From Mesorhizobium norvegicum (GTDB lineage Bacteria > Pseudomonadota > Alphaproteobacteria > Rhizobiales > Rhizobiaceae): a stretch of DNA of 64,000 nucleotides. The translations under genes and the position numbers were made by a program. A model generated the notes under the pieces. That model saw only the letters and a program-made list of their open reading frames with translations. It did no database searches and was not told where the DNA came from. This document shows positions 1-52,726 of the stretch, in pieces. The stretch lies in NCBI RefSeq assembly GCF_004919685.1, contig NZ_SMYZ01000084.1, positions 1-64,000 of the forward strand, given 5' to 3'. Positions within the stretch are counted from its first letter, which is position 1, and every line of letters begins with the position of its first letter.

Positions 1-1892
1 TCGCTGCCAAGGGCCGTGGATGACGCCAGCCGGCGCACGCTGCCGCCGGTGGCTTCCGCCGGCGCCTTCAGCCGGTTTTCGGTGGAAATGACATCGGCGA
101 ATTCCGGTGCGTTGACCGGGCCGACATGGGCGAGCGCCGTCAGGTCGCCATTGGCGACCTGGTAGAGGCCGATCTCGCTGGTCTCGACGCTGCCGAGGAA
201 GACGCCGGGTTCGGATTTATCGAGCTTGACGGTCAGTGTCTTGCCGGACGGGGTGATGATCTGGGAGGGGCCCGGATCGTCGGCCATCGTCTGGCGGCGG
301 ATTTCCAGCACCATGCCGCGGCCGTCGGCGGTCAGCCGCTCCTCCTCGAGCTCGGGCTCCTTCATCAGCCAGTGCGCAATGCGCCGGTAGAGCTGGACAT
401 GCGGGCCGCCGCCCTCGAAGCCGCGCGCCCACAGCCAGCCCTGGTCGGACAGAAGCATGCCGACGCGGCCTTCGCCCTTGCGGTCGAGCAACAGCAGGGG
501 CCGGTTGTCGGCGCCCTTCATCACCACTTCGCCTTCGGGGTTCTGCACGCCGATGGTGCGGAACCAGCGGCTCCAGTGCGGCGGCTCGGTGGCCGAACCG
601 TCGAGCCCGCGTGTCACCGGGTGGCGCTGGCCGAGTTCGGTGATGCGCGGATAGAAGGCCTTGTCGACCACCTCGCCGGTCGGCATCGCCGGCAGGGCCG
701 CCATCAGCGGCGTGCGCGCGATCGAGCTCTCGCCGGCATATTCGGGGCCGGCCGCAATCAGCAGCGCGCCGCCTTTTTCGACATATTCGGAGATGTAGTC
801 GTAATAGAGGATCGGCAGCACGTCGCGGTGCTGGTAGCGATCGAAGATGATGAGGTCGAAATCCTTGATCTTCTCGACGAACAGCTCGCGGGTCGGGAAG
901 GCGATCAGCGACAATTCGTTGATCGGCGTGCCGTCCTGTTTTTCCGGCGGCCGCAGGATGGTGAAGTGGACGAGATCGACCGAGGCGTCGGATTTCAACA
1001 GGTTGCGCCATGTGCGCTCACCGGCGTGCGGCTCGCCGGAGACGAGCAGAACACGCAGGTTTTCGCGGATACCGTCGATGAGCGCGATGGCGCGGTTGTT
1101 GGTGTCGGTCAGTTCTCCGGGCTCACGATCGATGGCGAGCTCGACGATGTTGCGGCCGGCGCCCGGTATGGTCACCTGCAGCGGCATGGCCTGGCCGACG
1201 GTGGCATGCTCGACCGCGACCTGTTCGCCATTGACCGAGACGCGCACATCGACCGGACCAGTCTCGTTTTCGGTCGAGATGACGCGGTAGGTCATGTCGA
1301 GCGGCTTGCCGACAAGGCCAAAGCGCGGCGCATTTTCGAAGCGGATACGGCGATCCTTTTCGTGGTCGTTGCCGGTGATCAAGGCATGCAGCGGGGCGTT
1401 GAAATCGGGCGCGCCCGGGGGCGCGTCATGGACCTCGCCATCGGTGATCATGATGGCGCCGCCGATGCGTGACGGCGGCACGTCGCGGAAAGCGCCCTCG
1501 AGCGCACCGAACAGCCGTGTCTCGGTGCGCTCCTCGGCAGCCTCGGATTTGCCGGCCTCGACGACGCGCACGTCGAACTGCTTGAAGCGGCCAAGACGCT
1601 GCTGCAGCCGGGCCAGCGCCTCGTCGGTCTGCTTGGTGCGGTCGCCGATATCCTGGCTTTGGCTGCGGTCGACAATCAGCGCGACGACGCTTTTCAGCGG
1701 CTCGCGCTCCTCGTTGAGAAACACCGGGTTGAACAAGGCGGCGGCGAGCGCCACCAGAGCAATGAAGCGGAAGACCGAGCCGCGCTGGCGAAACCACAGG
1801 CCGACCAGCGCCAGCAGCGCCAACGGCACCAGCGCCAAGGCCAGCAAGGGCCAGGAGATCAGCGGTTCGAAGGAGATCGACCAGTTCATCAT
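1..1892 (-). CDS. VWA/glutamine-amidotransferase-like membrane protein (3' end outside window)
   Basis: Last visible gene of the MoxR operon. It begins 3 bases after the stop of the DUF4159 gene with tandem ATG codons (1892, 1889), and a GGGGCAG ribosome site lies inside the upstream gene. Two hydrophobic segments at the N-terminus are followed by a von Willebrand A-like strand with a DRSQS (DxSxS) metal-site motif. Later there is a class I glutamine-amidotransferase-like fold region (FDLIIFDRY, then YVEKGGALLIAAG). The protein is probably membrane anchored with a periplasmic body, and is likely a partner of the MoxR ATPase. The reading frame stays open to base 1, so the C-terminus is missing. 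Confidence 0.85.
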   Translation of the reverse strand, partial: MMNWSISFEPLISWPLLALALVPLALLALVGLWFRQRGSVFRFIALVALAAALFNPVFLNEEREPLKSVVALIVDRSQSQDIGDRTKQTDEALARLQQRLGRFKQFDVRVVEAGKSEAAEERTETRLFGALEGAFRDVPPSRIGGAIMITDGEVHDAPPGAPDFNAPLHALITGNDHEKDRRIRFENAPRFGLVGKPLDMTYRVISTENETGPVDVRVSVNGEQVAVEHATVGQAMPLQVTIPGAGRNIVELAIDREPGELTDTNNRAIALIDGIRENLRVLLVSGEPHAGERTWRNLLKSDASVDLVHFTILRPPEKQDGTPINELSLIAFPTRELFVEKIKDFDLIIFDRYQHRDVLPILYYDYISEYVEKGGALLIAAGPEYAGESSIARTPLMAALPAMPTGEVVDKAFYPRITELGQRHPVTRGLDGSATEPPHWSRWFRTIGVQNPEGEVVMKGADNRPLLLLDRKGEGRVGMLLSDQGWLWARGFEGGGPHVQLYRRIAHWLMKEPELEEERLTADGRGMVLEIRRQTMADDPGPSQIITPSGKTLTVKLDKSEPGVFLGSVETSEIGLYQVANGDLTALAHVGPVNAPEFADVISTENRLKAPAEATGGSVRRLASSTALGS

Positions 1893-1895
1893 GAC

Positions 1896-4718
1896 TTACT
1901 GCCCCAGCCGTTCGAGCAGTATGGGCACGTGCACCTGGTCGGATTTGTAGTTGCCGGTCAGCATGTACATCATAATGTTGACGCCGGCGCGCAGTGCGTA
2001 GATGCGCTGCATCGGGTCCGCCGGCACGGTCGGCAGCAAAGGATCGCCATTCTCGTCAACCGCCCAGGCGCCGGCGAAATCATTGGCGGTGATCATGATC
2101 GGCGAAACGCCGTCGCCGGTGCGCACCGGCCGGTTCTCGGCGTTGCTGGCGTCGAGCGATGCCTCGACCCACAGCGGGCTGCCGGCGAAGCGGCCGGGAA
2201 ATTCGGGCAGGATGAAGAAGGATTTGGTCAGCACGTGATCGGACGGCACCGGCTCCAGCGGCGGCACGTTGAGGTTGCCGAGGATGTCGCGCAGCCGCTC
2301 CGTCGCCGGGCTGGTCGAATCGGCGCCGATGCCGTTGGCGAACTGGTCGCGCGTGTCGAACAGCACCGTGCCGCCTTGCTGCATATAGGCGTCGATGCGG
2401 GCGATCGCGGCCTGGCTCGGCATCGGCGCGGCCGGATCGATCGGCCAGTAGATCAGCGGATAGAATGACAGCTCGTCCTTCGAGATATCGACGCCGGCCG
2501 GCGCGCCCGGTTCGAGTGCCGTCTTCTCGACCAGGAAGCGGGTCAGGCCCTCGAGCCCGGCGCGGCTGATCGAATCGTCGCCCGGTACGCCAGTCAGCAC
2601 ATAGGCGATGCGGGTCTTCGAAATCGCCTCTATTGCCACCTCGTCGCCCGGCTTGGCGTCGTCGGCGCGGGCAAGATCGGCATGGCCGAACAAGGCACCG
2701 AGCGCAATCAGGACTGCTGCTGTGGTAGCCACGGCGCCGGCACGGCGCGGCCGGCGTGAAAACAGGCCGCCCATCCAGAACACCGCCAGCGTATCGAGCA
2801 GCATCAGCGCCAGGGCAGCCGCGACCAGTGCGCCCTTCAAATTGCGCGATTCGTCAAAGGCATACTGGATCGATGTGACGGGAACAGTGATTTGCGGGCG
2901 TGCCAGCGGGGCCAGCGTGCTGTCGGCTTCAAGCAGATTGTGGGCGAAGACGCCCGTCTCAGAGCCATAGAGGCCGGGCGGGTTTTCGAAGGTCACCGGC
3001 AGTGCGCCGGGCCCCGGCACCAGCGGCCGCGCGTCCGGCGTCGGCGGCACCAACGTGCCGTCGGCTGCTATCATGCGGTAGGGCGCCAGCGAGGTGGCGG
3101 CGGCTTCGGCATTGGCGATCGCCGCGCCCTGGTTGCGTGACAGCTGCACGATACGGCGCAGCATCTCGACGAAGCTGCCCGAGATCGGCAGGTTCGACCA
3201 GGTCGCTTCGGGCGTGACGTGGAACAGCACCAGCGTGCCCTTGCCTTTCTTCAGTCCGGTGACCAGCGGCGTGCCGTCGGCAAGGGCCGCCCAGGTGCGC
3301 TCGACAATGTCGGGCGTCGGCTCGGCCAGCACCTGCCTGGTGACGGTGACTTCGGTCGGCGGAGCAAGATCGGCGAACGGGCCGGCCTTGGGGAATTCGG
3401 TGACCGGCTGCGGGGACGTCCATGACAGCGCGCCGCCGAGCGAACGCTCGCCGGTGCGCAGGCGGACCGGCAGCAGGTCGTCGTCATTGCCGGCGGCGGC
3501 CAGCCGCGAACCGGCGAAACGCACCAGCGTGCCGCCATTGTCGACCCAGTCGACCAGTCTCTGCCGGACCTGTGCCGGAATGGTGCCGATGTCGGCCATG
3601 ATGATCATTGCCGGCTTCTGGTCGAGGATCTGCGGGATGGCGTCGGCGAGGTCGGCGCTGGAGGGTTCGACGAGATCGGCGAAGGGCTGCAGCGCGCGCC
3701 TGATGTAGTAGAGCGGCGACAACAGCGGTTGCGCCTGGTCAGCCTCGGCCTGCGACAGCAGCCCGACGCGGCGGCGCTTGGAGCTTTCGTCGAGGACGCG
3801 CACCGCGCCGGCCTGGCGCTCGCCGTCGAGCGCGATCGAGGCGAAGTCGTTGCGCAGCTCGAACGGCACCGCCATGGTGCCGGTGGCGGTGGTTTCGCCG
3901 GGGGAAAAGGTCAGCGTCGCATCGGCGATGCGGCGGCCCTTGTCGTCGAAGGCGCCGGCGGTGACCTGCGCCGGGGCAGGGTCGCCCGGCGCGCGAATGG
4001 CAGTTAGCGCAAAGCCGTCGACCTGGTTGTCGGCGGCGGTCAGGCCGGTCAGCGACAGCCTGTCGGCGGTTGCCCAAACGACACGGGCGGCATTTTTCGA
4101 CAGAAGCGTGTTGAAGGCGGCCTCGTCGCCTTTTGCCGCCAGGCCGTCGGCAAGCACGGCGACGCTGGCGCCGGGCAAGCTCTCCAGCACGCCGGCGACG
4201 CGGGCATAGACGGCGGGCCGGTCGGTCGGGATCGGCCGCGGCTTGGCTGCGCGCAGCCGGTCGAGGGCTGCGGCGGCATCGAACGGGCCAACCTCCGCAT
4301 TGGCTTTTTCGGCGGTGAAGGCGATGACGACCGGCACGCCGTTGGAGCCGGCATCTTTGATCAGCCGCTCGGCGGTGGCGACGCGCTTGCCCCAGTCGGC
4401 GGCACTGGCCCAGTCATTGTCGATGACGAGCGCAAGCGCCGCACCCTCGGCCGGCAACTTTTCGCGCGGGTTGAAGACTGGGTCGGCCAAGGCGGCGACG
4501 ATGAGCGCCGCCATCAGCAGCCTGAGCAGCGTCAGCCACCACGGGCTCTGCTGCGGCGTCTCTTCGCGCTTCAGCACGCGTGCCAGGATCTTCAGCGGCG
4601 GGAAGATTTCGGTCTGCGGCTTGGGCGGCGTCAGCCTGAGCAGCCACCAGATCACCGGCAGCGCCAGCAGGCCCCACAGCACCATGGGGGCGCCAAAGGA
4701 GAGCGGCAGCCAGCTCAT
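1896..4718 (-). CDS. BatA/DUF4159 domain membrane protein
   Basis: 940 residues. The N-terminus carries the BatA-type signature (two hydrophobic segments around LTPPKPQTEIFPPLKIL). A VWA-like stretch follows (ALVIDNDWAS), then a long periplasmic part, two more hydrophobic segments near residues 630-690, and a C-terminal DUF4159 domain (SFYPLIYWP, GGTVLFDTRDQ). Its start overlaps the DUF58 stop as ATGA, so translation is probably coupled. In this family the protein acts with MoxR ATPases and DUF58 proteins in envelope or stress functions; the exact role is unknown. Confidence 0.9.
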   Translation of the reverse strand: MSWLPLSFGAPMVLWGLLALPVIWWLLRLTPPKPQTEIFPPLKILARVLKREETPQQSPWWLTLLRLLMAALIVAALADPVFNPREKLPAEGAALALVIDNDWASAADWGKRVATAERLIKDAGSNGVPVVIAFTAEKANAEVGPFDAAAALDRLRAAKPRPIPTDRPAVYARVAGVLESLPGASVAVLADGLAAKGDEAAFNTLLSKNAARVVWATADRLSLTGLTAADNQVDGFALTAIRAPGDPAPAQVTAGAFDDKGRRIADATLTFSPGETTATGTMAVPFELRNDFASIALDGERQAGAVRVLDESSKRRRVGLLSQAEADQAQPLLSPLYYIRRALQPFADLVEPSSADLADAIPQILDQKPAMIIMADIGTIPAQVRQRLVDWVDNGGTLVRFAGSRLAAAGNDDDLLPVRLRTGERSLGGALSWTSPQPVTEFPKAGPFADLAPPTEVTVTRQVLAEPTPDIVERTWAALADGTPLVTGLKKGKGTLVLFHVTPEATWSNLPISGSFVEMLRRIVQLSRNQGAAIANAEAAATSLAPYRMIAADGTLVPPTPDARPLVPGPGALPVTFENPPGLYGSETGVFAHNLLEADSTLAPLARPQITVPVTSIQYAFDESRNLKGALVAAALALMLLDTLAVFWMGGLFSRRPRRAGAVATTAAVLIALGALFGHADLARADDAKPGDEVAIEAISKTRIAYVLTGVPGDDSISRAGLEGLTRFLVEKTALEPGAPAGVDISKDELSFYPLIYWPIDPAAPMPSQAAIARIDAYMQQGGTVLFDTRDQFANGIGADSTSPATERLRDILGNLNVPPLEPVPSDHVLTKSFFILPEFPGRFAGSPLWVEASLDASNAENRPVRTGDGVSPIMITANDFAGAWAVDENGDPLLPTVPADPMQRIYALRAGVNIMMYMLTGNYKSDQVHVPILLERLGQ

Positions 4719-15029: not shown

Positions 15030-16916
15030 ATGTTGTTGTTTAGCTGGTTTGAAAGACGGCTCGATCCGTTCCCCGCGGCGGAACCGGTCGAGCCGCCCAA
15101 GACGCTGGTTGCCTTCTGCGTGCATTATACGCGCGGCGCGTGGCCCTATATCCTTCTCGACGCGGTGCTGGTGACGGCCATCGCGATCGCGGAAGTGTGG
15201 ATGTTCGGCTTCCTCGGCCGCATCGTCGACTGGCTGTCGGGGCAGAATCGCGAAACCTTCCTGCAGACGGAAGCCTGGAAGCTCGCCGGCATGGCCTTCA
15301 TCGTGCTGTTCGCGCTGCCGGGCACGGTGTGGCTGCATTCGCTGCTCAACCAGCAGACGCTGATGGGCAACTATCCCATGCGCATCCGCTGGCAGGTGCA
15401 CCGCTATTTGCTCAAGCAGTCGATGAGCTTCTACCAGGACGAGTTCGCCGGCCGCATCGCCACCAAGCTGATGCAGACGGCGCTCGCCGTGCGCGAATGC
15501 GTCATCAAGCTGATCGATGTCCTGAACTACGTCATCGTCTATTTCCTTGGCATGCTGGTCATCGTCGGTTCGGCCGACTGGCGGCTGGCGGCGCCGCTCG
15601 GCGTCTGGCTGGTCGGCTACATCCTGCTGCTGCGCTATTTCATCCCGAAGCTGGGCAAGGTCGGCGAGGAGCAGGCCAATGCGCGCTCGACCATGACCGG
15701 CCGCGTCGTCGACAGCTACTCCAACATCCAGACGGTCAAGCTGTTCAGCCACGCACGCCGCGAAGCGTCGTTTGCGCGCGAAGGCATGGCCGGCTTCCTG
15801 CAGACGGTCTACCGGTCGATGCGGCTGGTGACGGTGCTTTTCGGCCTGCTCTACATCATGAATTCGCTGCTGCTGTTCTCGGTCACGGCGATGGCGCTGT
15901 GGCTGTGGCTCGGCCAGTCGGTGACGATCGGTGCGGTCGCCGTGGTCATCGGGCTGGTGCTCAGGCTGTGGGGCATGTCGCAATGGATCATGTGGGAAAT
16001 GTCTGGGCTGTTCGAGAATATCGGCACGGTGCAGGACGGCATCGCCTCGATCTCGCTGCCACGCCTGGTCGAGGACCGGCCGGGGGCGAAGGACATCGCC
16101 GTTTCCAGGGGTGAGATACGCTTCGAGGACATCCGCTTCCACTATGGCAAGCAGAAAGGGGTGATCGAGAACCTGTCGCTGGCGGTGAGGCCAGGCGAAA
16201 AGGTCGGGATCGTCGGCCGCTCCGGCGCCGGCAAGTCGACGCTGGTCAATCTCCTGCTGCGTTTCTACGACCTGGAGAGCGGAAAGATCCTGATCGACGG
16301 CCAGGAAATCGCCGACGTCACGCAGGATTCGCTGCGCGCCCAGATCGGCATGGTCACGCAGGACACCTCGCTGCTGCATCGTTCGGTGCGCGAGAACATC
16401 CTCTATGGCCGGCCCGACGCCTCGGAAGAGCTGCTTGTCGAGGCAGCGGGGCGCGCCGAGGCGCTGGACTTCATATCGGGGCTTTCGGACGCCAAAGACC
16501 GCAAGGGCTTCGATGCCCATGTCGGCGACCGCGGCGTCAAATTGTCCGGCGGCCAGCGGCAACGCATCGCCATTGCTCGCGTTATGTTGAAGGACGCACC
16601 GATACTTATCCTTGACGAAGCGACCTCGGCGCTTGATTCCGAAGCCGAGGCGGCGATCCAGGAGAATCTCTACAAGCTCATGCAAGGCAAGACCGTCATC
16701 GCCATCGCGCACCGGCTGTCGACCATCGCGGCGATGGACAGGCTGGTGGTGATGGACAAGGGCCGTGTCATCGAAGAAGGTTCGCACGAGGAACTCGTCG
16801 CCAAGGGCGGGCTCTACGCGCAGCTCTGGCAGCGCCAGTCGGGCGGGTTCCTGCTTGAGGACGGTCCCGCCGACGCCGCCAATGACGCACTTGCAAAGGG
16901 GCAAGCCGCAGAATGA
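15030..16916 (+). CDS. ABC exporter half-transporter, fused permease and ATPase (1)
   Basis: 628 residues. An N-terminal six-helix ABC membrane domain (about residues 30-310) precedes a nucleotide-binding domain with Walker A GRSGAGKST near residue 395, signature LSGGQRQR near 504 and Walker B ILILDEATSALD near 525. This is a type IV exporter; the substrate cannot be told. Only 10 bases separate it from a closely similar second exporter, so they probably form a heterodimer. The ribosome site is weak. Confidence 0.92.
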   Translation: MLLFSWFERRLDPFPAAEPVEPPKTLVAFCVHYTRGAWPYILLDAVLVTAIAIAEVWMFGFLGRIVDWLSGQNRETFLQTEAWKLAGMAFIVLFALPGTVWLHSLLNQQTLMGNYPMRIRWQVHRYLLKQSMSFYQDEFAGRIATKLMQTALAVRECVIKLIDVLNYVIVYFLGMLVIVGSADWRLAAPLGVWLVGYILLLRYFIPKLGKVGEEQANARSTMTGRVVDSYSNIQTVKLFSHARREASFAREGMAGFLQTVYRSMRLVTVLFGLLYIMNSLLLFSVTAMALWLWLGQSVTIGAVAVVIGLVLRLWGMSQWIMWEMSGLFENIGTVQDGIASISLPRLVEDRPGAKDIAVSRGEIRFEDIRFHYGKQKGVIENLSLAVRPGEKVGIVGRSGAGKSTLVNLLLRFYDLESGKILIDGQEIADVTQDSLRAQIGMVTQDTSLLHRSVRENILYGRPDASEELLVEAAGRAEALDFISGLSDAKDRKGFDAHVGDRGVKLSGGQRQRIAIARVMLKDAPILILDEATSALDSEAEAAIQENLYKLMQGKTVIAIAHRLSTIAAMDRLVVMDKGRVIEEGSHEELVAKGGLYAQLWQRQSGGFLLEDGPADAANDALAKGQAAE

Positions 16917-16926
16917 TGGCCGCCGC

Positions 16927-18810
16927 ATGATGACAGCCGTCTATCGCTGGTTCGAGAACTGGGTCTATCCGTTCAGGGAGCCGGCGAATCTTCGGCCACC
17001 GACCAGCGTCGGCGGCTTTCTCTGGCACTATGTCGGCCAGGCGAAGTTCGCCTTCTTCGCCATGCTGGTCATCGGCGGCATCGCGCCGCTGGTCGAGGCT
17101 GGCCTGTTCTACTTTGTCGGGCGGCTGGTCGACATTCTCGACCAGCTTCCCGCCGAGCGCAGCTGGCACGCTTTGTGGAATGCCGCCGGCTCCGAACTGG
17201 TGTTCATGATCGCGGTGGTGCTCGTCATCCGCACCATCGTCGTCGGCCTGTCTGCCCTGGTCGACGAACAGACGATCACGCCGGGCTTCTACAATCTGGT
17301 GCGCTGGCAGGCGCACCGGCATGTCTCGCGCCAGTCCTACGCCTTCTTCCAGAACGATTTTGCCGGCCGCATCGCCACCAAGGTCTGGCAGGCGGGCCAG
17401 GCGACCGGCGACCTGATGGAAAGCTTCATCGAGGTCGTCTGGTTCATGGTCGTCTACACGGTGACGACGCTGGCGCTGGTCGCCGGGCTGGATCTGCGTC
17501 TGGCAGTGCTGGTGGTGATCTGGATTTCCGCCTTCGGCTGGCTGGCCAAGCTCTATCTGCCGGCAATCCGCAAGCATGCCGAGGAGACCGCCGAGGCCGG
17601 CTCGATGATCACCGGCCGCATCGTCGATTCCTATTCCAACGTGCAGACGCTGAAACTGTTCTCGGCCGACGGCGACGACCGCTACATCAAGAACGGCTTC
17701 GACATCTATCTCGACGCGCTGCGCCCGTTCACCCGGCGGCTGACCGGCGTGCGCATGGCGCTGACGACGCTGTCGGGCATCATGATCACGGCGATCGGCT
17801 GTTTTGCCGTCTATCTCTGGGTCGAGGGCTCGATCACCGTCGGCGCTGTCGCCTTCACGCTGTCGCTGGTGCTGCGGCTCAACATGCTGCTCGGCCGGCT
17901 GATGATGCAGCTCAACAGCATCTTGCGGAATCTCGGCGTGCTGGAAAATTCCAAAGCGCTGATCTCGCAGCCGCTCGGCCTGGTCGATGCACCCGACGCC
18001 AAGGAGCTCGTGGTGGCCGGCGGACGCATCGCGGTGAAAAACGTCGAGTTCCATTACGGCAAAGGGTTCGGCGTGCTCAACGGCATCGACCTTGTCGTGC
18101 GGCCGGGCGAGAAGGTCGGACTGGTCGGACCGTCGGGCGCCGGCAAGACGACGCTCGCCAATCTGATCCTGCGCCTCTACGATCTGGAAGGCGGGTCCAT
18201 CACCATCGATGGTCAGAACGTCTCCAAAGTCACGCAGAATTCGCTGCGCGCCAATATCGGCGTGGTCAGCCAGGATACGGCCTTGTTCCACCGTTCGCTG
18301 CGCGACAACATCAAGCTCGGCATGCCTGACGCGACCGACGCCGAGGTGATCGCGGCGGCGAAAAAGGCCGAGGCGCACGAGTTCATCCTTGGCTTGCGCG
18401 ACAACAGGGACCGCGCCGGCTACGAGGCCTTTGTCGGCGAGCGCGGCGTCAAGTTGTCGGGCGGCCAGCGCCAACGCGTGGCGATCGCCCGCGTCTTCCT
18501 CAAGGACGCGCCGGTTCTGATCCTCGACGAGGCGACCTCGGCGCTCGATTCCGACATCGAGGCGGCGATCCAGGAGAATCTGACGCGGCTGATGGAAAAC
18601 AAGACGGTCATCGCCATCGCCCACCGGCTGTCGACGATCGCAGCACTTGACCGGCTGGTGGTGCTCGACGGCGGTCGCATCGTCGAGCAAGGCACGCATG
18701 ACCAGCTGGTGGCGCTCGACGGGCTTTACGCGCGGCTGTGGAAGCGGCAGTCCGGCGGTTTTCTTTATCACGAGGACAGCGTGCTCGAAGAGACACGCCC
18801 GGCGGAGTAG
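16927..18810 (+). CDS. ABC exporter half-transporter, fused permease and ATPase (2)
   Basis: 627 residues from the ATGATG at 16927; the open frame extends upstream but only inside the preceding gene. It has the same architecture as its neighbour: membrane domain, then Walker A GPSGAGKTT near residue 400, LSGGQRQR near 509 and VLILDEATSALD near 530. Both proteins start with an aromatic-rich motif (MLLFSWFERRLDPF; YRWFENWVYPF), which suggests a tandem duplication and a paired transporter. Both ATP sites look intact. Confidence 0.92.
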   Translation: MMTAVYRWFENWVYPFREPANLRPPTSVGGFLWHYVGQAKFAFFAMLVIGGIAPLVEAGLFYFVGRLVDILDQLPAERSWHALWNAAGSELVFMIAVVLVIRTIVVGLSALVDEQTITPGFYNLVRWQAHRHVSRQSYAFFQNDFAGRIATKVWQAGQATGDLMESFIEVVWFMVVYTVTTLALVAGLDLRLAVLVVIWISAFGWLAKLYLPAIRKHAEETAEAGSMITGRIVDSYSNVQTLKLFSADGDDRYIKNGFDIYLDALRPFTRRLTGVRMALTTLSGIMITAIGCFAVYLWVEGSITVGAVAFTLSLVLRLNMLLGRLMMQLNSILRNLGVLENSKALISQPLGLVDAPDAKELVVAGGRIAVKNVEFHYGKGFGVLNGIDLVVRPGEKVGLVGPSGAGKTTLANLILRLYDLEGGSITIDGQNVSKVTQNSLRANIGVVSQDTALFHRSLRDNIKLGMPDATDAEVIAAAKKAEAHEFILGLRDNRDRAGYEAFVGERGVKLSGGQRQRVAIARVFLKDAPVLILDEATSALDSDIEAAIQENLTRLMENKTVIAIAHRLSTIAALDRLVVLDGGRIVEQGTHDQLVALDGLYARLWKRQSGGFLYHEDSVLEETRPAE

Positions 18811-28781: not shown

Positions 28782-28972
28782 CGCCGGGTCTCCCTTGCTG
28801 GGGCCAAAGGGTGCGTTCAGATTGACGCGTCGTGTCGGATTGCATGGAGTGTACGGCCAATGCACCGCCCGTGCATCCGCCGCTTAGACCCGTGACATGA
28901 CAAAATCAAGACAAGCCCGGATCGGACGGGAGACAGCGCTAGCGGCTTGGAAGCCGCGTCAATGGATCGAAT

Positions 28973-29674
28973 CTAGAGACTGGCGAGAGTGACCTCCAAG
29001 TCCTCGTATGCGCCGACGAGGGCATCCGCGCCATGTCGCAACAGACCATCGCCATGAGTGCCGATGCAATGATTGCCAGCGATAAATCCGATCACGCGCA
29101 TACCCGCTGCCTTGCCCGCCAGGACGCCGTTCACGCTGTCCTCGACCACGATGCACTCCCCTGGATGAGCACCCATCGTAGCCGCCGCGTGCAAGAACAG
29201 GTCTGGTTCCGGCTTTCCGTTGACGACCATGTCCGATGAAAAAATATGAGGATTGAAAAGGTCGACAAGGCCTGTGTGTTCGAGTTTCCAACGCAATCGG
29301 GCGAGCGGCGTGCTTGACGCAACACATTTCGATGCCGGGAGCCGGCTAATCACATTCCGCGCGTCGGGTAAGGCCGTCAGATCCTTCCGCAAGCGTTCGT
29401 TGGTGTAGCCGGCAAGCTGTTCAAAAAAGCGCGGAGAGAGCGGCTTGGCTCGCTCCTGGCCGATTGCTTCGAGCTTCGCCTGCCACATAGCGGGAGATAA
29501 TCCCATGAAGGCTTGTGTATAGGCGCTCGGTTCGAACGTGATGCCCGCCGTCGTCAGATATTCAAGCTCGGCTGCCTGATATATCTCCTCGCTGTTCACA
29601 AGGACGCCGTCACAATCAAATATTATCAGCTTCAAAGGCGACACTTTGGGCCTGATATCTGGTGGTCGGCTCAT
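28973..29674 (-). CDS. HAD superfamily hydrolase (phosphatase/phosphoglucomutase-like)
   Basis: 233 residues from the ATG at 29674; the frame further upstream overlaps the permease. HAD motifs: LIIFDCDGVLVNSE (nucleophile Asp), ASSTPLARL, KPEPDLFLHA and VVEDSVNGVLAGKAAGM. It has a helical cap of class C1. It lies 13 bases downstream of the purine permease, so a role in nucleotide dephosphorylation is possible, but substrate calls in this family are unreliable. Confidence 0.9.
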   Translation of the reverse strand: MSRPPDIRPKVSPLKLIIFDCDGVLVNSEEIYQAAELEYLTTAGITFEPSAYTQAFMGLSPAMWQAKLEAIGQERAKPLSPRFFEQLAGYTNERLRKDLTALPDARNVISRLPASKCVASSTPLARLRWKLEHTGLVDLFNPHIFSSDMVVNGKPEPDLFLHAAATMGAHPGECIVVEDSVNGVLAGKAAGMRVIGFIAGNHCIGTHGDGLLRHGADALVGAYEDLEVTLASL

Positions 29675-29687
29675 GTCCGTGGCGCGT

Positions 29688-31024
29688 CTAGCGGGGATTT
29701 GGCAGGATCTGATGCAGCACGATAGCCCAGACGGCGCCGAAGGCGATCGATGAGCCGAGGATGTACTGCACGAGGTCAGGGAGCGTCTTGACGAAGTCCG
29801 GAGGCGCCAGCGTGGCAAACAGCGCCATCAGGATCGGCAGGCCGATGACCAGCATGTTCCGCTCGGTCAGAGGCGTGCCGCGCACGACGCGGAAACCGTT
29901 CATGGCAATGACGACGCACAGTACGCCGAAAACACCGCCGATGACCGGCCCCGGTATCGAGGCGATGACCGCCGAAAGCTTGCCGATCAGGCCAAACAGA
30001 ACCAGGAAGATGCCGGCCGCGGCAAAGGCGGCGCGGCTGGCAATGCCGGTGATGGCAATGATGCCGGCATTGGACGAGTAGCCTGTCACCGGCGTGCTGC
30101 ACAGCAGCGCGCTGACCAGGCAGCCGAGGCCTTCACCGGTGGCGCCCCGGTCGAGCTGCTCATCCGAAAGCGGCTTGTCGATGACGGCGCCGACGGCGAA
30201 CCAGGTGCCGGTGGTTTCGGCGAGAACGACGATGTAGACGATCAGCATCGTCAGTGTCGCCGACAGCGAGAACGTTACGTCGAGATTGAGGAAGGCGATG
30301 CGCGGCATGGAAAACCATGTCGCGTCGGCGACGCCCGCCATGTTCAGCTGGCCCATGAAGGCGGCGGCCACGCTGCCTGCCGCCAGGGCGATGATCACGG
30401 ACAGCAGGCGCAGCCAGGCGCCCTTCGCGCCAAGCGCCATGCCGGTCAGCATGCAGCCGACGAGGAAGGCCGCGGCGACAAAGGCAAGGACGATGTTGCC
30501 GCCGACGGTGGCGGTGCCGTGGACCGCGAACACGCTCTCCTTGAGCGCCACCGGCATCAAGGCGACGCCGACGACGATGATGATCGAGCCGCCGACGATG
30601 GGCGGTACGAAGCGGTTGACGAGGCGATGAAAGATCCTTGTCGGCGACCCGAGCAGCATGACCAGTATGGCGCCCGGAATGAGCGCTCCGACCACGGCGG
30701 AAAGACCCGCGATGCCGCCGCCCGCGCCGAACGCGATGGCCAGCACCGCGCCGATCGGGACGAAGGACGGCCCCTGGACGACCGGCAGCCGCATCAAAAG
30801 CTGCGACTGGATCAGTGTGGCGATGCCCGCCGCCACGAATGCGGACTGGATGAAGGCGCCGGCATCGCCGACGCTGAAGGCCAGCACCGACGCGATGATG
30901 AACGGCACGATATAGACGTCCATCGCCAGCACATGCTGGAGGCCGAGCAGTGCGCGGCCTTGCCCCATGGCAACGGATCATCCGGCTGGGCAATCAATGT
31001 GATCTCTGGCGCAACGCTTTCCAT
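29688..31024 (-). pseudogene. NCS2 uracil/xanthine permease with an apparent N-terminal frameshift
   Basis: The main frame (29688-30968, 426 aa) holds nearly the whole NCS2 permease: LLGLQHVLAMDVYIVP, VQGPSFVPIGAV, the middle AETTGTWFAVG and GVFGVLCVVIAMNGF. The normal start is in another frame: ATG at 31024 with a good AAGGGGAA site, reading MESVAPEITLIAQPDDPLPW and then GKA. About 2 extra bases (GC in GGCCGCGCACTG, near 30950-30962) break the two parts. The internal ATG at 30968 could rescue a nearly full-length protein but lacks a ribosome site. A sequencing error is possible. Confidence 0.75.
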
Positions 31025-31161
31025 GTACTGTTCCCCTTCTGGCCCCTCTGGAAATTCCCGCTCGATCATGGGATCAGTCGGGGCCGAAGGACAGCGGCCA
31101 CAACATTTGCCAACTGTTTTTTTGTAGGCCAAGCAGACTGTTAGCCGAACCGGAGCCGAAC

Positions 31162-32526
31162 ATGACGACAGAACCCTTCACGCTGCTCGGCACCGCCTTC
31201 CACACGCCCCAACGCGGCAGGCTGGAAGTGCTGAGGGACCATCTATTCAGCGTCGATGCGCAAGGGTGCATCGCGGAGATCCTGACGCCTGGTCATCCGG
31301 AGTACGAAGCGAGGCAGAACGCTGCACGCCAGGCCGGCACGCTGGTTGAGCTTGCCGATGGACAGTTCCTGCTGCCCGGCCTGATCGACCTGCACATCCA
31401 TGCGCCGCAATGGCCGCAGATGGGCAAGGCGCTGGATGTGCCGCTCGAAGTCTGGCTGCAGAAATACACGTTTCCGCTCGAAGCGCGCTTCGCGGATGTG
31501 AACTATGCGCGCGAGGTCTATACCGATCTGGTCGACAACCTTTTGGCCAACGGAACCACCACGGCGCTCTATTTCGCCACGGTCCATGTCGACGCGAGCC
31601 TGGTGCTTGCCGAGACCTGTCTTGAGAAGGGGCAGCGCGCGCTTGTCGGCAAGGTGGTGATGGACGATCCAGAGCAGTGTCCACCCTTCTACCGCGATGC
31701 CGATGCGGCAAGCGCGGTGTCGGACGCCAGGCGGTTCATCGAGGCGGTCAAGGCGCTGGACCCGCGCGACAGGCCGCTCGTCCAGCCGGCGATCACACCG
31801 CGCTTCATCCCAAGCTGCACGGATGCGGCGTTGCAAGGACTGGGCGAGCTGGCAACCGAATTCGGCTGCCACGTGCAGACGCATTGCTCAGAAAGCGACT
31901 GGGCAAAGCAGTTCGTCGAGACGCGCTTCGGCCGAACCGATGCGGCAAGCCTCGATGGTTTCGGTCTGCTCACCCGGCACACGATCCTGGCGCATTCGAA
32001 TTTCATCGATGAGCAGGATATGGACCTCATAGAGGAGAAGGGCGCGGGCGTTGCCCATTGCCCGCTCTCCAATTTCTATTTCGCCAATGCCGCCTTTCCG
32101 CTGCGCGCGGCACTTGACCGGCACATGCATATCGGGCTCGGAACCGACATTTCGGGAGGCTACAGCCCGTCGTTGTTCGACGGCTGCCGGCATGCGCTGT
32201 CGGCGTCAAGGATGCTGCAGAGCGGTGTCCATGCCGGCCTGCCGGCCGAGGTGCGCGGTGCGCCCGGCGAACCCATCACCCATCAGGAGGCGTTCTGGCT
32301 GGCCACTGCCGGCGGTGCGGAAGCACTCGATCTGCCGACGGGCAGTTTTCGCGTCGGCTATGAGTTCGACGCGCTGCTGATCGACACCCGGGCCAAGGCC
32401 TCGAATATCCACGTCAGCAGAGTCTACGATACATTGGAAGAAATATTCCAGAAGGTCGTGCTCAACGCGGCGCGGGCCAACATCGCCAGTGTCTGGGTGA
32501 ATGGCCGGAGGGTGGTTGGGCAATAG
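31162..32526 (+). CDS. guaD: Guanine deaminase
   Basis: 454 residues. Amidohydrolase that converts guanine to xanthine and ammonia. Zinc ligands are in LPGLIDLHIHAPQW, in the HCSESD strand, and in LGTDISGGYS (final Asp); HSNFIDEQDMDLI follows the guanine deaminase pattern. GGAG precedes the ATG. It is divergent from the purine permease, so uptake and deamination fit together. Confidence 0.95.
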   Translation: MTTEPFTLLGTAFHTPQRGRLEVLRDHLFSVDAQGCIAEILTPGHPEYEARQNAARQAGTLVELADGQFLLPGLIDLHIHAPQWPQMGKALDVPLEVWLQKYTFPLEARFADVNYAREVYTDLVDNLLANGTTTALYFATVHVDASLVLAETCLEKGQRALVGKVVMDDPEQCPPFYRDADAASAVSDARRFIEAVKALDPRDRPLVQPAITPRFIPSCTDAALQGLGELATEFGCHVQTHCSESDWAKQFVETRFGRTDAASLDGFGLLTRHTILAHSNFIDEQDMDLIEEKGAGVAHCPLSNFYFANAAFPLRAALDRHMHIGLGTDISGGYSPSLFDGCRHALSASRMLQSGVHAGLPAEVRGAPGEPITHQEAFWLATAGGAEALDLPTGSFRVGYEFDALLIDTRAKASNIHVSRVYDTLEEIFQKVVLNAARANIASVWVNGRRVVGQ

Positions 32527-32592: not shown

Positions 32593-33696
32593 TCAGGTGT
32601 TGAACTTGAACAGCAGGATGTCGCCGTCCTGGACGACATATTCCTTGCCTTCGTCGCGCGCCTTGCCGGCTTCCTTGGCCGCCACTTCGCCGCCCAGTGT
32701 GACGAAGTCGTTGTAGGCGATGGTCTGGGCGCGGATGAAGCCGCGCTCGAAATCGGTGTGGATGACGCCAGCCGCCTGCGGTGCCTTGTCGCCCTTGTGC
32801 ACGGTCCAGGCGCGCGTCTCCTTCGGCCCTACGGTGAAATAGGTGATGAGGTGCAATAGCTCGTAGCCGGCGCGGATGACCTTGTTCAGGCCGGGCTCGT
32901 CGAGGCCGAGCGAGGACAGGAATTCCATCTCTTCCTCGTCCGAGAGCTGGGCGACTTCGGCCTCGATCGCGGCCGAGATGACGACGGTGCTGGCGCCTTG
33001 CGCCGCAGCCATCTTCTCCACGGCCTTGGTGTGCTCGTTGCCGGTGGCGGCGTCGGCTTCGGCGACGTTGCAGACGTAGAGGACCGGGTGCGAGGTCAAA
33101 AGGTTGAGCCCCTGCAGGATGCGCAGGTCTTCCGCCGAGATGCCGTTGAGCAGGACGCGGGTCGGCTTGCCGGCTTGCAGCAGTTCGAGTGCGGCCTCCA
33201 TCATCGGCAGCACGGCGGTCGCTTCCTTGTCCTTGCTGCCGGCGCGCTTGCGGAATTGCACGATGCGGCGCTCGAGGCTGTCGAGGTCGGCGAGCATCAG
33301 CTCGGTTTCGACCGTCTCGGCGTCGGCAACAGGGTCGATGCGGCCCTCGACATGGGTGATGTCGTCATCCTCGAAGCAGCGCAGCACATGCACGATGGCG
33401 TCGACCTCGCGGATGTTGGCAAGGAACTGGTTGCCCAGCCCTTCGCCCTTCGAGGCGCCGCGCACCAGGCCGGCAATGTCGACGAAGGAGATGCGGGTCG
33501 GGATGATCTCCTTCGACTTGCCGATCGCCGCGATCTTCTGCAGGCGCGGATCGGGCACCGCGACCTCGCCGGTGTTCGGTTCGATGGTGCAGAACGGATA
33601 GTTGGCGGCCTGCGCCGCAGCCGTCCTGGTCAACGCGTTGAAAAGCGTCGACTTGCCGACGTTGGGCAAGCCAACGATGCCGCATTTGAAACCCAT
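32593..33696 (-). CDS. ychF: Redox-regulated ATPase/GTPase YchF
   Basis: 367 residues from the ATG at 33696; an open frame continues far upstream but does not belong to the protein. Obg-family P-loop GLPNVGKST, switch NYPFCTIEPN, DIAGLVRGAS and a C-terminal TGS domain ending DILLFKFNT. A ribosome-associated, ATP-preferring P-loop protein linked to the oxidative stress response. It closes the rplY-pth-TPR-ychF cluster. Confidence 0.96.
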   Translation of the reverse strand: MGFKCGIVGLPNVGKSTLFNALTRTAAAQAANYPFCTIEPNTGEVAVPDPRLQKIAAIGKSKEIIPTRISFVDIAGLVRGASKGEGLGNQFLANIREVDAIVHVLRCFEDDDITHVEGRIDPVADAETVETELMLADLDSLERRIVQFRKRAGSKDKEATAVLPMMEAALELLQAGKPTRVLLNGISAEDLRILQGLNLLTSHPVLYVCNVAEADAATGNEHTKAVEKMAAAQGASTVVISAAIEAEVAQLSDEEEMEFLSSLGLDEPGLNKVIRAGYELLHLITYFTVGPKETRAWTVHKGDKAPQAAGVIHTDFERGFIRAQTIAYNDFVTLGGEVAAKEAGKARDEGKEYVVQDGDILLFKFNT

Positions 33697-41054: not shown

Positions 41055-41085
41055 AAAGCACCCGCCGTCAGGCGGGTGCTTTGTG
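41055..41085. terminator. Bidirectional rho-independent terminator
   Basis: Perfect 12-bp stem AAAGCACCCGCC / GGCGGGTGCTTT with loop GTCA, between two convergent hydrolase genes. The stem A/T ends give T tracts on both strands. Part of it recurs at 42086-42113. Confidence 0.88.
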
Positions 41086-41113
41086 CTTCATCGAAATGTC
41101 CACGGGACAGTGC

Positions 41114-42028
41114 CTATTTGGCGAGAAAACCAGTGATCAGCTTGACGGTGGCGTCGGGGTTTTCCTCCATGATCCAGTGACCGGAGTCGGGCACGATGCC
41201 GCCCGTGACGTCGGTGGCAACAAGCCGCAGGATATCGCCCTGCGTGGTGCCGGCGGATTTTTCACCGCCAACTGCCAGCACCGGCATCGTCAGCTTACCG
41301 CCGGCGGCGAGCATCGCCTGGTTGTCGATCGCGTCCTGGTCAAAGGCCTTGAACTGCTCGAAAGCGTCATGCATCGCATGCGGACGGGCATAGAGTTTGG
41401 CGTAGTGCCTGCGCGTTGCCTCGTCGATCTTCTTGGGGTTGGCCGACAGCTCGTTGTAGAAGCGGTCGAGATAGATGCGCTCGCGACCCGCGACCAGCCG
41501 CTCCATGTCCGGGCCGCGGAAGTTGAAGTGCCAAAGCAGCGGGCTTTGCTTGATCTTTTCCCAGTCGCCGATTCCGGGCAGCGGCGCATCGATGATGACC
41601 CATTTGGTGATGCGCTTGGGATATTGCGCGGCAAGCGCATAGCCGACCATGTTGCCAATGTCGTGCGTGACCAGGTCAGCCTTGTCGATCTTAAGCGCGT
41701 CCATCACCCCGGCGATGTCGACGGCCTGGTTCTTCTTGGTGTAGCCCGCTTCCGGGTGAGCGGACAGACCCATGCCGCGCAGATCCGGTACGACGACGGT
41801 ATGATCCTTCGCAAGTGCGGCCGCCGCCGCGCCCCACATGTCTCCGGTATCGGCAAAGCCGTGCAGCAGCACGACGGCGGGACCCGTTCCGCCTACGCGC
41901 ACATAGAGTTTGGTGCCGTTGGTTTCGACGGACTGCGTCTTGAAACCCGGTGGAAAAGCAACGATGCGTGCCGTCGCCGGCAAGGTAACAAGAAGCACAC
42001 CCAACACGGCCAACACGATCTTGCGCAT
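41114..42028 (-). CDS. Exported alpha/beta hydrolase, epoxide hydrolase-like
   Basis: 304 residues from the ATG at 42028 (CTGGAG upstream). Signal peptide LAVLGVLLVTLPATARI. The nucleophile position is Asp (LVTHDIGNMVG), as in epoxide hydrolases and haloalkane dehalogenases. The base is His in VPDSGHWIMEENP, and the oxyanion motif is LLHGFADTGD. Probably periplasmic. Substrate unknown. It lies just downstream of the SDR gene on the same strand. Confidence 0.85.
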   Translation of the reverse strand: MRKIVLAVLGVLLVTLPATARIVAFPPGFKTQSVETNGTKLYVRVGGTGPAVVLLHGFADTGDMWGAAAAALAKDHTVVVPDLRGMGLSAHPEAGYTKKNQAVDIAGVMDALKIDKADLVTHDIGNMVGYALAAQYPKRITKWVIIDAPLPGIGDWEKIKQSPLLWHFNFRGPDMERLVAGRERIYLDRFYNELSANPKKIDEATRRHYAKLYARPHAMHDAFEQFKAFDQDAIDNQAMLAAGGKLTMPVLAVGGEKSAGTTQGDILRLVATDVTGGIVPDSGHWIMEENPDATVKLITGFLAK

Positions 42029-42115
42029 ATCATTCTCCAGAGACATTGAGTAACCAAACCTACGGTCTAAAGCGCGCGGCTGACAAGCCGCCGTCAGGCG
42101 GGTGCCTTTGTGCTG

Positions 42116-42865
42116 TCAGGCGATGCTCAAGCCGCCATCGATCAGCATTTCCGCACCGACCATGAACGGGCATTCGTCGGAGGCGAGAAACACCACCGCA
42201 TTGGCAATTTCCTCGGCGGTTCCGAAACGGCCGGCAGGTACCAGGCCGACGACGGCTTTCGCGCACGCCTTCGCCGCTTCGGGGTCCAGCCCAAGCTTGT
42301 CGTTGAGTGGCGTGTCGATCGGGCCAGGGCTGATCACATTGGCGCGGATGCCGCGCCCGATCAGTTCGCCCGACAGCGTTCGCGCGAGCGAAATCATGCC
42401 GGCCTTGGCCAGCGCATAGACGTGTGTTCCAGCCATTCCCATATGCGCGTTGACCGAACCGCTGAGGATGATCGACGACGGGTTCGAAAACAGCGGGACG
42501 AGCGCCTTGACCAGGAAATACGGCCCCTTGAGGTCGATATCGATGCTCCTGTCGAACGCCGCTTCGGTCCAATCGCCAAGCGGGCGCAGATCGGCGATGC
42601 CGGCGTTGAGGAAGAGAGCGTCGAGCTTGCCGAAGGTTTCCTCGATCCGCCGCGCTATGTCGCTCTGGGCAGCGGCATCTCCAGCGTCGGCGGCAATGAC
42701 GAGCACATCGCTGCCGAGGACGGCGCGCGCCTCCTCGAGACGGCCCGCATTGGTGCCGGTGATGGCGACGCGCGCGCCTTCCTCGATGAAACGGCGCGCC
42801 GTCACCAGGCCGATGCCGCTGGTGCCGCCGGTAATCAATGCGGCCTTGCCTTTCAGTCTGGACAT
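42116..42865 (-). CDS. SDR family oxidoreductase
   Basis: 249 residues, classical short-chain dehydrogenase. Cofactor motif ITGGTSGIGL, NAG motif FLNAGIAD, catalytic Ser in ILSGSVNAH and YALAK; TGxxxGxG type, probably NADP(H)-preferring given no acidic residue at the end of beta 2 (TGTNAGRLEE). Substrate unknown. It could form one transcript with the downstream epoxide hydrolase-like gene. Confidence 0.92.
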   Translation of the reverse strand: MSRLKGKAALITGGTSGIGLVTARRFIEEGARVAITGTNAGRLEEARAVLGSDVLVIAADAGDAAAQSDIARRIEETFGKLDALFLNAGIADLRPLGDWTEAAFDRSIDIDLKGPYFLVKALVPLFSNPSSIILSGSVNAHMGMAGTHVYALAKAGMISLARTLSGELIGRGIRANVISPGPIDTPLNDKLGLDPEAAKACAKAVVGLVPAGRFGTAEEIANAVVFLASDECPFMVGAEMLIDGGLSIA

Positions 42866-42942
42866 GGCGATTGCCTTCCTGGCGCGGAGCCTTCATTGAT
42901 CTCCTAACAGGCTTTTCCCAGGCGTATGGTAAAAGAATCAAA

Positions 42943-42975
42943 GAGGGCGCAGCAAATGCCGCGCCCTCGTATCAA
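42943..42975 (-). terminator. Rho-independent terminator of the MFS gene
   Basis: Stem GAGGGCGC / GCGCCCTC with a 10-base loop. On the minus strand it is followed by TTTGATTCTTTTA. It lies just downstream of the MFS stop. Confidence 0.72.
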
Positions 42976-42996
42976 TTCCGGAAGATGAGCTGATTT

Positions 42997-44241
42997 TTAG
43001 CTGGTCGCCGCCTGTGCCTTCCTGGCTTCCTTCATGTTCGGCAGGAACACGGTCAGCAGTCCAAGCAGCGGCAGATACGAGCAGATCTGGAAGACATAAT
43101 CGATGCCCTTCATGTCGGCGACGACGCCGAGCACGGCAGCAGCGATGCCGCCCATGCCGAAGGCGAAGCCGAAGAAGATGCCGGCGATCATGCCGACACG
43201 TCCCGGCACCAATTCCTGCGCAAAGACGACGATGTTGGAGAAGGCAGACGACAGGATCAGGCCGATCAGCACCGTCAGCACCATCGTCCATTCGAGGTTG
43301 GCGTAGGGCAGGGCCAGGGTGAAGGGCAGCACGCCGACGATGGAGAACCAGATCATCGCCTTCTGTCCGTAGCGGTCGCCGAACGGGCCGCCGAGCAGGA
43401 TGCCCAGCGCCGAGGCGCCGAGGAACAGGAACAGCATGACTTGGCTCATCTGCACCGAAACCCCGAACTTATGCATGGAATAGAAGGTGTAGTAGCTGGC
43501 GAGGCTGGCGATGTAGGCGTTCTTGGTCAGCACCAGCAGCGTCAGCACCCCCAATGCCCACATCACCTTGCGGCGCGGGAAGGGCGAGACGAAGCTTGCC
43601 GTCTTGCGGTTGCCCTGCGCGGCACGCAGCCGGCTGTACCAGCCGCCGACCTGCCACAAAACGATGATGCCGATCAGCGAGCCGACGGTGAACCAGGAGA
43701 TGCTGGTCTGGCCGAACGGCACGACAATGAAGGCCGCCAGCAGCGGTCCCATGGACTGGCCGAAATTGCCGCCGACCTGGAACAGCGACTGCGCCAGGCC
43801 GAAGCGGCCGCCGGAGGCGAAGCGGGCGATGCGCGAGGATTCCGGATGGAAGATCGCCGAGCCGATGCCGATCAGCGAGGCGCCGATCAGGAGCAGCGAA
43901 TAGTGCCCGGCATAGGCGAGCACGACCAGGCCGATCAGCGACGATGCCATGCCGTAGGGCAGCGAATAGGGCATCGGCCGCTTGTCGGTGATCATGCCGA
44001 TCACCGGCTGCAGCAGCGATGCGGTCACCTGGAAGGTGAAGGTCAGGAGGCCGATCTGCCAGAAATCGAGGCCGTAATTCTCTTTCAACAAGGGATAGAT
44101 GGCCGATAGCAGCGACTGCATGATGTCGTTGATGCAGTGGCAGAAGCTCACCGCCAGGATGACGGTGAAGGCCGTCGCCTGGGCGGAAGCGTGACTGGCG
44201 CTCGCCGGTGGGGCGACGCTGGCGGCTGTCGTATCGGTCAA
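42997..44241 (-). CDS. MFS transporter, fosmidomycin-resistance (Fsr) type
   Basis: 414 residues with twelve predicted helices. The pattern FCHCINDIMQSLLSAIYPLLKE near the N-terminus, LTFTFQVTASLLQPVIG, and IFHPESSRIAR after helix 4 are characteristic of the Fsr efflux group. It probably exports drugs or a metabolite by proton antiport. Divergent from an AraC regulator that may control it. Confidence 0.9.
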   Translation of the reverse strand: MTDTTAASVAPPASASHASAQATAFTVILAVSFCHCINDIMQSLLSAIYPLLKENYGLDFWQIGLLTFTFQVTASLLQPVIGMITDKRPMPYSLPYGMASSLIGLVVLAYAGHYSLLLIGASLIGIGSAIFHPESSRIARFASGGRFGLAQSLFQVGGNFGQSMGPLLAAFIVVPFGQTSISWFTVGSLIGIIVLWQVGGWYSRLRAAQGNRKTASFVSPFPRRKVMWALGVLTLLVLTKNAYIASLASYYTFYSMHKFGVSVQMSQVMLFLFLGASALGILLGGPFGDRYGQKAMIWFSIVGVLPFTLALPYANLEWTMVLTVLIGLILSSAFSNIVVFAQELVPGRVGMIAGIFFGFAFGMGGIAAAVLGVVADMKGIDYVFQICSYLPLLGLLTVFLPNMKEARKAQAATS

Positions 44242-46383: not shown

Positions 46384-47010
46384 TCAGCCCGCCTTGCCGC
46401 CAAGCCAGGCCGCGAATTGGTCGATGGTCTGGTCGGCAATCGCCTGCATGGTGGCCGGCGAGACCGTCTTCCAGCTGTCGCCGCCCCCGCCGGCGCCGGA
46501 TTTGACCGACGGCGCTTTCTGCTGGCCGTTGATGCGGTGCAGGCGGTTGCCTGAGGGGTCATAGACGTCCCAGACATAGATGACGGTGGTGTCCGTGCCT
46601 TCCGACATGGTCGAGAAATAGCCCTTCAGCACATGGGTCGCGGTCTGGTCGGCGCTGCCGGCGAGCGTGATGCCGCGCTGCCTGGCGCGCGTCTGCAGCT
46701 CCGCCGTCAGCGGCGTCGCGGCCTCGACCGAAGCGCCGACGATCGGCGCGATCTGCAAGCGGGTCTTCGACAGTATCGCAGCGCTTTGGGCCGATGTGAC
46801 CGGGGTGGTGGTGGTTGCAGGCGCGCCCGCGATGGTGCCGGCCGGCGCCGGAACCGTGGCCGCCGTGTTGCCTGGCGTGGCGGGCAGCGTCTGGCTCGAC
46901 GTTGCCGGCGGCGTGATGGCCGACGGTTCGAGAACGTCCTTTGCGTTGGTGCAGGCGGCAAGAGCCAATGCCACAAGCAATGACACGGTCGTCACATGCG
47001 ATCGTCTCAT
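46384..47010 (-). CDS. Hypothetical lipoprotein
   Basis: 208 residues from the ATG at 47010 (AGAAGGCAA upstream). The signal peptide ends in the lipobox LALAACTNA, so Cys is probably lipidated. A Thr/Pro/Ala-rich linker follows, then a folded domain (THVLKGYFSTMSEGTDTTVI, VYVWDVYDPSGNRLHRINGQ). I do not know its function. It lies between the M24 gene and prs, so an envelope role next to lgt is natural. Confidence 0.82.
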   Translation of the reverse strand: MRRSHVTTVSLLVALALAACTNAKDVLEPSAITPPATSSQTLPATPGNTAATVPAPAGTIAGAPATTTTPVTSAQSAAILSKTRLQIAPIVGASVEAATPLTAELQTRARQRGITLAGSADQTATHVLKGYFSTMSEGTDTTVIYVWDVYDPSGNRLHRINGQQKAPSVKSGAGGGGDSWKTVSPATMQAIADQTIDQFAAWLGGKAG

Positions 47011-51852: not shown

Positions 51853-52353
51853 ATGGAACTTCTCGAACTCGAATTCTCCCGCGAAATCCATCCGGTGGAT
51901 GTTATCGAGCAGGTGGCCCACAACAACGACTGGTCCTTTGAGCGGGCCGGCGACGACGAGATTTCGATCTCGGTTGCCGGAAGCTGGACCGACTATCACG
52001 TCTCCTTCTCGTGGATGGAGGATTTCGAGGCCCTGCACTTGGCCTGTGCCTTCGACATCAAGGTGCCGGAGACCCGCGCGCTGGAAGTGATGCGGCTCTT
52101 GTCGCTGATTAACGAGCAGATGCTGTTCGGTCATTTCGACCTCTGGGAGCAGGAGGGCGCGATCATGTTCCGCCAGTCGCTGCTTCTGGCCGGCGGGGTC
52201 GAGCCGTCGAGCCAGCAGGTTGAAGTCTTGCTGTCGTCGGCGCTGGAAGCCTGTGAATGCTATTTCCAGGCCTTCCAATTCGTCGTCTGGTCGGGAACCT
52301 CGGCCAAGGACGCACTGGCCGGCGTGCTGTTCGAGACCTACGGCAACGCCTGA
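51853..52353 (+). CDS. YbjN domain protein
   Basis: 166 residues from the ATG at 51853 (ACAGGAA upstream; an upstream frame is less likely). YbjN fold: NNDWSFERAGDDEISISVAG, WMEDFEALHLACAFDIKVP and LLSLINEQMLFGHFDLWEQEG. The family is related to type III secretion chaperone folds and to stress tolerance in E. coli; the mechanism is unknown. Followed 13 bases later by csaA. Confidence 0.9.
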   Translation: MELLELEFSREIHPVDVIEQVAHNNDWSFERAGDDEISISVAGSWTDYHVSFSWMEDFEALHLACAFDIKVPETRALEVMRLLSLINEQMLFGHFDLWEQEGAIMFRQSLLLAGGVEPSSQQVEVLLSSALEACECYFQAFQFVVWSGTSAKDALAGVLFETYGNA

Positions 52354-52366
52354 GCCAAAGACCAAG

Positions 52367-52726
52367 ATGAGTTCGAGCAGCGAGCGCAAGCCCGAGATCA
52401 GTTTTGCCGATTTCGATCGTGTCGACATCCGCGCCGGCACGATCGTCGAAGCTGAACCGTTTCCGCAGGCGCGCAAGCCCGCATTCAAGCTGAAGATCGA
52501 TTTTGGCGCCGACATTGGCATCAAGAAATCGTCGGCGCAGATCACCAAATACTATGCGCCTGAAACGCTGATCGGCCGGCAAGTGTTCGCGGTGGTCAAT
52601 TTCCCACCGCGCCAGATCGGCCCGTTCATGTCGGAAGTGCTGACGCTCGGCTTTCCCGACGAGGAGGGCGCCGTGGTGCTCGGCGCCATCGAGCGCAAGG
52701 TGCCGGACGGCGGCAGATTGTTTTAG
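52367..52726 (+). CDS. csaA: tRNA-binding/export-related chaperone CsaA
   Basis: 119 residues from the ATG at 52367. A single OB-fold tRNA-binding domain: FDRVDIRAGTIVEAEPFPQA, KKSSAQITKYYAPETLIG and VNFPPRQIGPFMSEVLTLGF. It binds RNA and unfolded preproteins and is thought to assist secretion. Its stop overlaps the convergent glycosyltransferase stop by 4 bases. Confidence 0.93.
   Translation: MSSSSERKPEISFADFDRVDIRAGTIVEAEPFPQARKPAFKLKIDFGADIGIKKSSAQITKYYAPETLIGRQVFAVVNFPPRQIGPFMSEVLTLGFPDEEGAVVLGAIERKVPDGGRLF

Follow-up and report, generated by a model that had tools for sequence, protein, structure and literature searches.

In the 64,000-nucleotide stretch of Mesorhizobium norvegicum DNA analysed here (the window), a PF00860 permease gene that is paired divergently with a guanine deaminase gene appears, on balance, to have lost its function through a recent two-base insertion private to this copy. 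The permease gene is accessory in the genus, with a match at E ≤ 1e-60 in 19 of 146 genomes (the genome of the window included). The original prediction held that a frameshift separates the start codons from the rest of the permease, and it offered three options: a newly broken gene, an internal restart, or a wrong base call. The comparison with 23 relatives confirms the frame break, and the three options are the right ones to weigh.

The permease is read on the minus strand. Its ancestral start is the ATG at 31024-31022, with a Shine–Dalgarno-like AAGGGGAA on its 5′ side (31031-31038; calculated anti-SD pairing of −7.2 kcal/mol). Translation from this ATG opens with MESVAPEITLIAQPDDPLPWGKAAHCSAS..., an N-terminus that matches those of the relatives, so that the good ribosome site and the expected N-terminus are both present as predicted. 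By direct reading, this frame (30812-31024) is 70 codons long, parts from that of the permease some 23 codons in, and closes at a stop at 30812. The body of the permease sits in a different frame, open from an ATG at 30968-30966 to a stop at 29688 (426 amino acids). In the permease frame, a TGA occurs at 30980-30978 and, because of it, in-frame starts farther upstream cannot reach the body; the first usable ATG is that at 30968.

The two frames are set apart by two extra bases within about 30951-30956, in GGCCGCGCACTG (11 bases in the window vs. 9 in the relatives), just before the first membrane helix of the permease. The alignments, including a realignment of the three nearest relatives, differ in where they place the gap, and the exact extra pair is therefore ambiguous. 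The proposal that deleting GC would rejoin the frames is right in that two bases are in surplus relative to the relatives, but several placements are equivalent and GC is just one of them.

A DNA search of the genus (146 genomes, own included) found the locus in 18 other genomes at E ≤ 1e-30. To these were added 15 further named loci, 10 of which show no difference from one of the 18 across the stretch compared, leaving 23 distinct relatives (L049-L066, L042, L043, L045, L046, and L047). Nineteen could be aligned base by base with the window; L053, L056, L059, and L061 were judged by translation only. In neither comparison are the two extra bases found (0/23), and the translations of all 23 run in a single frame through the junction to a stop. 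Alignment to relatives, the check proposed with the original prediction, thus leaves the frame break private to the window. An ATG equivalent to 31024 is present in 21 relatives. The exceptions are the distant L045 and L046 (53–55% identical), whose N-termini differ and which likewise lack a start at the equivalent of 30968. Natural starts at that equivalent, which had been named as one of two observations that would speak against a break, occur in none of the 23. In near relatives sharing the CCATGG (L044, L034, L033, and L005), an ATG matching 30968 is present, out of the permease frame; in the window, the same ATG is in the permease frame because the two extra bases shift it there. Over the body, the window permease is 90–98% identical in amino acids to the permeases of 18 other genomes of the genus, and these PF00860 permeases likewise adjoin guanine deaminase; only in the window copy is the start split from the body by two extra bases.

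The body has evolved under strong purifying selection. Comparison with the three nearest relatives gives dN/dS values of 0.038, 0.053, and 0.048, and the range over the 20 ungapped relatives is 0.038 to 0.098 (21 were supplied, with L045 and L046 left out, and L043 was dropped as gapped). Against the three nearest relatives, the codons unique to the window are 32 synonymous and five nonsynonymous; the corresponding counts for those relatives are 7/2, 14/3, and 15/1 (both sets being computed with no outgroup, so that directions of change are not fixed). A body that is intact and constrained implies that the break is recent, that the protein is still made, or that the base call is wrong. The lesion, if real, is young, since the body is otherwise unbroken and its dN/dS is low.

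The reading that we favor is a recent, private insertion followed by loss of gene function. A two-base insertion, possibly a small duplication within the CG-rich run, would have arisen just 5′ of the first membrane helix. Ribosomes initiating at 31024 would then leave the permease frame after the first two dozen or so codons and terminate at 30812. Little or no permease would be made, which would amount to an early stage of loss of function. Small indels near the start are an ordinary route to young pseudogenes. The features expected of a young pseudogene are found here, with a lesion absent from the relatives and a remaining gene that is intact and constrained. As in ordinary young pseudogenes, there is one private, non-triplet indel, and nothing unusual was seen. 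The constraint on the branch of the window (five nonsynonymous vs. 32 synonymous codons) also fits a permease that is still being made.

The main rival, which we hold to be possible rather than likely, is an error of sequencing or assembly, with the living strain keeping the frame of its relatives and an intact gene. The absence of the extra bases from every relative fits an error as well as a recent break, as does the lack of a second lesion in the constrained remainder of the permease. The site lies in a GC-rich stretch, and the genome (8.27 Mb) is a draft assembly in 249 contigs. On the other side, two-base insertions outside homopolymers are not the commonest type of error in short-read assemblies, which would count against an error here. 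The other indels of the window bear on the same question. The window was compared with three near relatives (G030, G094, and G109), at least two of which cover 39,868 of its bases, all of them at or before position 46,828. Non-triplet indels specific to the window with respect to all covering relatives number 20, and seven of them, the permease indel included, fall within ORFs called coding by a third-position substitution rule. Four come as pairs at the very beginning of their ORFs: 6657 and 6664, which sum to 12 bases, are within 18 bases of the start of an AAA-ATPase ORF, and 37334 and 37354, which cancel out, are within 23 bases of the start of a GGDEF/EAL ORF. The indel at 33695 is in a T-run just 5′ of the ATG of a ychF-like gene, which the ORF list had extended. 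The ORF at 1294-1950 (plus strand), which has no Pfam match, carries a one-base deletion at 1894 with respect to G030 and G094, 56 bases from its end. Apart from 1894, the other indels in coding ORFs are compensated or at ORF edges, and the permease indel is thus the sole clear, uncompensated break of a known gene in the compared part. The survey speaks mildly against a generally poor assembly, and not against one single error.

A coarser test, for ORFs of the relatives that match the window in two frames, returned 18 ORFs (six, three, and nine). Several of these are antisense or upstream extensions of coding ORFs, and the one at 52011-52723 reflects a difference of 13 bases immediately after a stop codon, seen against G094 alone. 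The test missed the permease itself, whose lost N-terminus is shorter than it can pick up.

A restart at the internal ATG is a minor rival and, in our view, an unlikely one. According to it, the insertion brings the ATG at 30968 into frame, and a shorter permease made from there is still functional. The product would have five residues (MGQGR) ahead of ALLGLQ, instead of the 23 found in most relatives. It is thus 18 residues shorter, close to the loss of about 20 first proposed; the accompanying claim that 30968 has no ribosome site is better put as a weak site, with a calculated anti-SD pairing of −3.3 kcal/mol vs. −7.2 kcal/mol at 31024. Such a product would retain the Gln-His motif of TMS1 and everything downstream, and the substitution pattern of the body is constrained. 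A low-confidence structure prediction for an intact relative puts the beginning of the first helix near residue 20, but its quality (mean pLDDT of 49.1) does not allow the tail to be judged. The ribosome site argues against a restart, and so does the fact that no relative begins there. Several in-frame CTG codons score better than 30968 by chance (−4.7 at 30950 and −5.5 at 30815), and pairing values of this order therefore mean little. Coupling of a stop with a restart does not apply, because 30968 is inside the frame that opens at 31024, whose stop at 30812 lies far downstream. A variant, at least as doubtful, is that an ATG lying out of frame in the relatives has been captured, the permease with the shorter N-terminus being translated, probably at a lower level, so that one indel would alter both the start and the level of expression. 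A programmed −1 ribosomal frameshift joining the two frames, which overlap as open frames between 30977 and the stop at 30812, is very unlikely, since there is no X_XXY_YYZ slippery heptamer in 31024-30700 and the gene is in two frames in none of the 23 relatives.

The identity of the broken gene as a member of the PF00860 family is clear from the body alone (29688-30968), which matches Xan_ur_permease with 211.2 bits over profile positions 5–386 of 389 (gathering score of 27 bits). The more specific models stay below their curated cut-offs: TIGR00801 (ncs2) gives 228.5 bits vs. 291.8, and TIGR03173 (pbuX, xanthine permease) gives 331.7 bits over positions 1–407 of 407 vs. 414.15. With the latter cut-off not reached, xanthine is not an assigned substrate. 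The solved structures that match represent nine distinct sequences (uracil permease, solute carrier family 23 member 1, and uric acid-xanthine permease); their best stretches start no earlier than query residue 46, which leaves the N-terminus uncovered.

Three motifs are used for canonical NATs in PMC5972032, and the first of them is the Gln-His pair in TMS1. It is present in the window (LGLQHVL) and in 23/23 relatives. By the same text, the other two are altered in the window and in all 23 relatives. The motif of TMS8 reads E-T-T-G-T, with Thr at the last place throughout. That of TMS10 reads S-N-A-G-I-I-A-I-T-G in the window, with Ser where the canonical residue is Gln, Glu, or Pro; at this first place, 21 relatives have Ser and two have Ala, and the remainder fits the motif. 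The permease beside guanine deaminase is perhaps a divergent NAT branch of its own, judging from these motifs. With the xanthine and ncs2 cut-offs not reached and two NAT motifs altered, the substrate is inferred from the neighboring gene. "Purine permease" is thus a working name, resting on family and neighbor only. Literature searches on the permease, guanine deaminase, and rhizobia, and on frameshift and reinitiation, gave no title on this gene pair in Mesorhizobium, and the former showed no paper on a non-canonical NAT signature of a guanine-deaminase-linked permease.

The divergent neighbor, guanine deaminase (31162-32526, plus strand), is intact as the original prediction stated (TIGR02967, 435.8 bits vs. 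a cut-off of 375.4). The two genes adjoin on opposite strands in 23/23 relatives; the arrangement is divergent in 21 of them and convergent in the other two (L045 and L046). Between them, at 31040-31110, the stretch around CTGTCCTT...CGACTGATCCCATGATCG is strongly conserved among the Mesorhizobium relatives and may be a candidate operator or promoter of the divergent pair. No inverted repeats of 8 or more were detected in 31020-31170. Elsewhere in the same genome, one further sequence matches PF00860, with a score at about the cut-off. Plasmid copies of the permease were considered and rejected, the search giving a single record with 3% of the query matched.

On the other side, the permease is followed by a gene for a HAD-type hydrolase (28973-29674, minus strand), inside an unbroken alignment to G109. 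The alignments to G030 and G094 skip 28917-29685 of the window (about 90 bases are present there), and the pattern of alignment is that of a hydrolase gene gained or lost between close relatives. Two further observations concern more remote parts of the window. The stretch at 41083-43006 (about 1.9 kb), which contains an alpha/beta hydrolase ORF (41114-42046, minus strand), is missing from the aligned stretches of the three near relatives. At 15030-16916 and 16765-18810 (plus strand), two adjacent ABC transporter genes have about 71–75% DNA cross-similarity over parts and are probably tandem paralogues.

No new mechanism is involved in the permease gene, in which the change is either a recent break of an ordinary kind or an error in the sequence. 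For annotation, the gene is to be flagged as frameshifted, and the beginning of the 426-amino-acid ORF at 30968 is not to be read as a natural start. If the restart works, the locus would be a modest case of an indel that captures a start codon.
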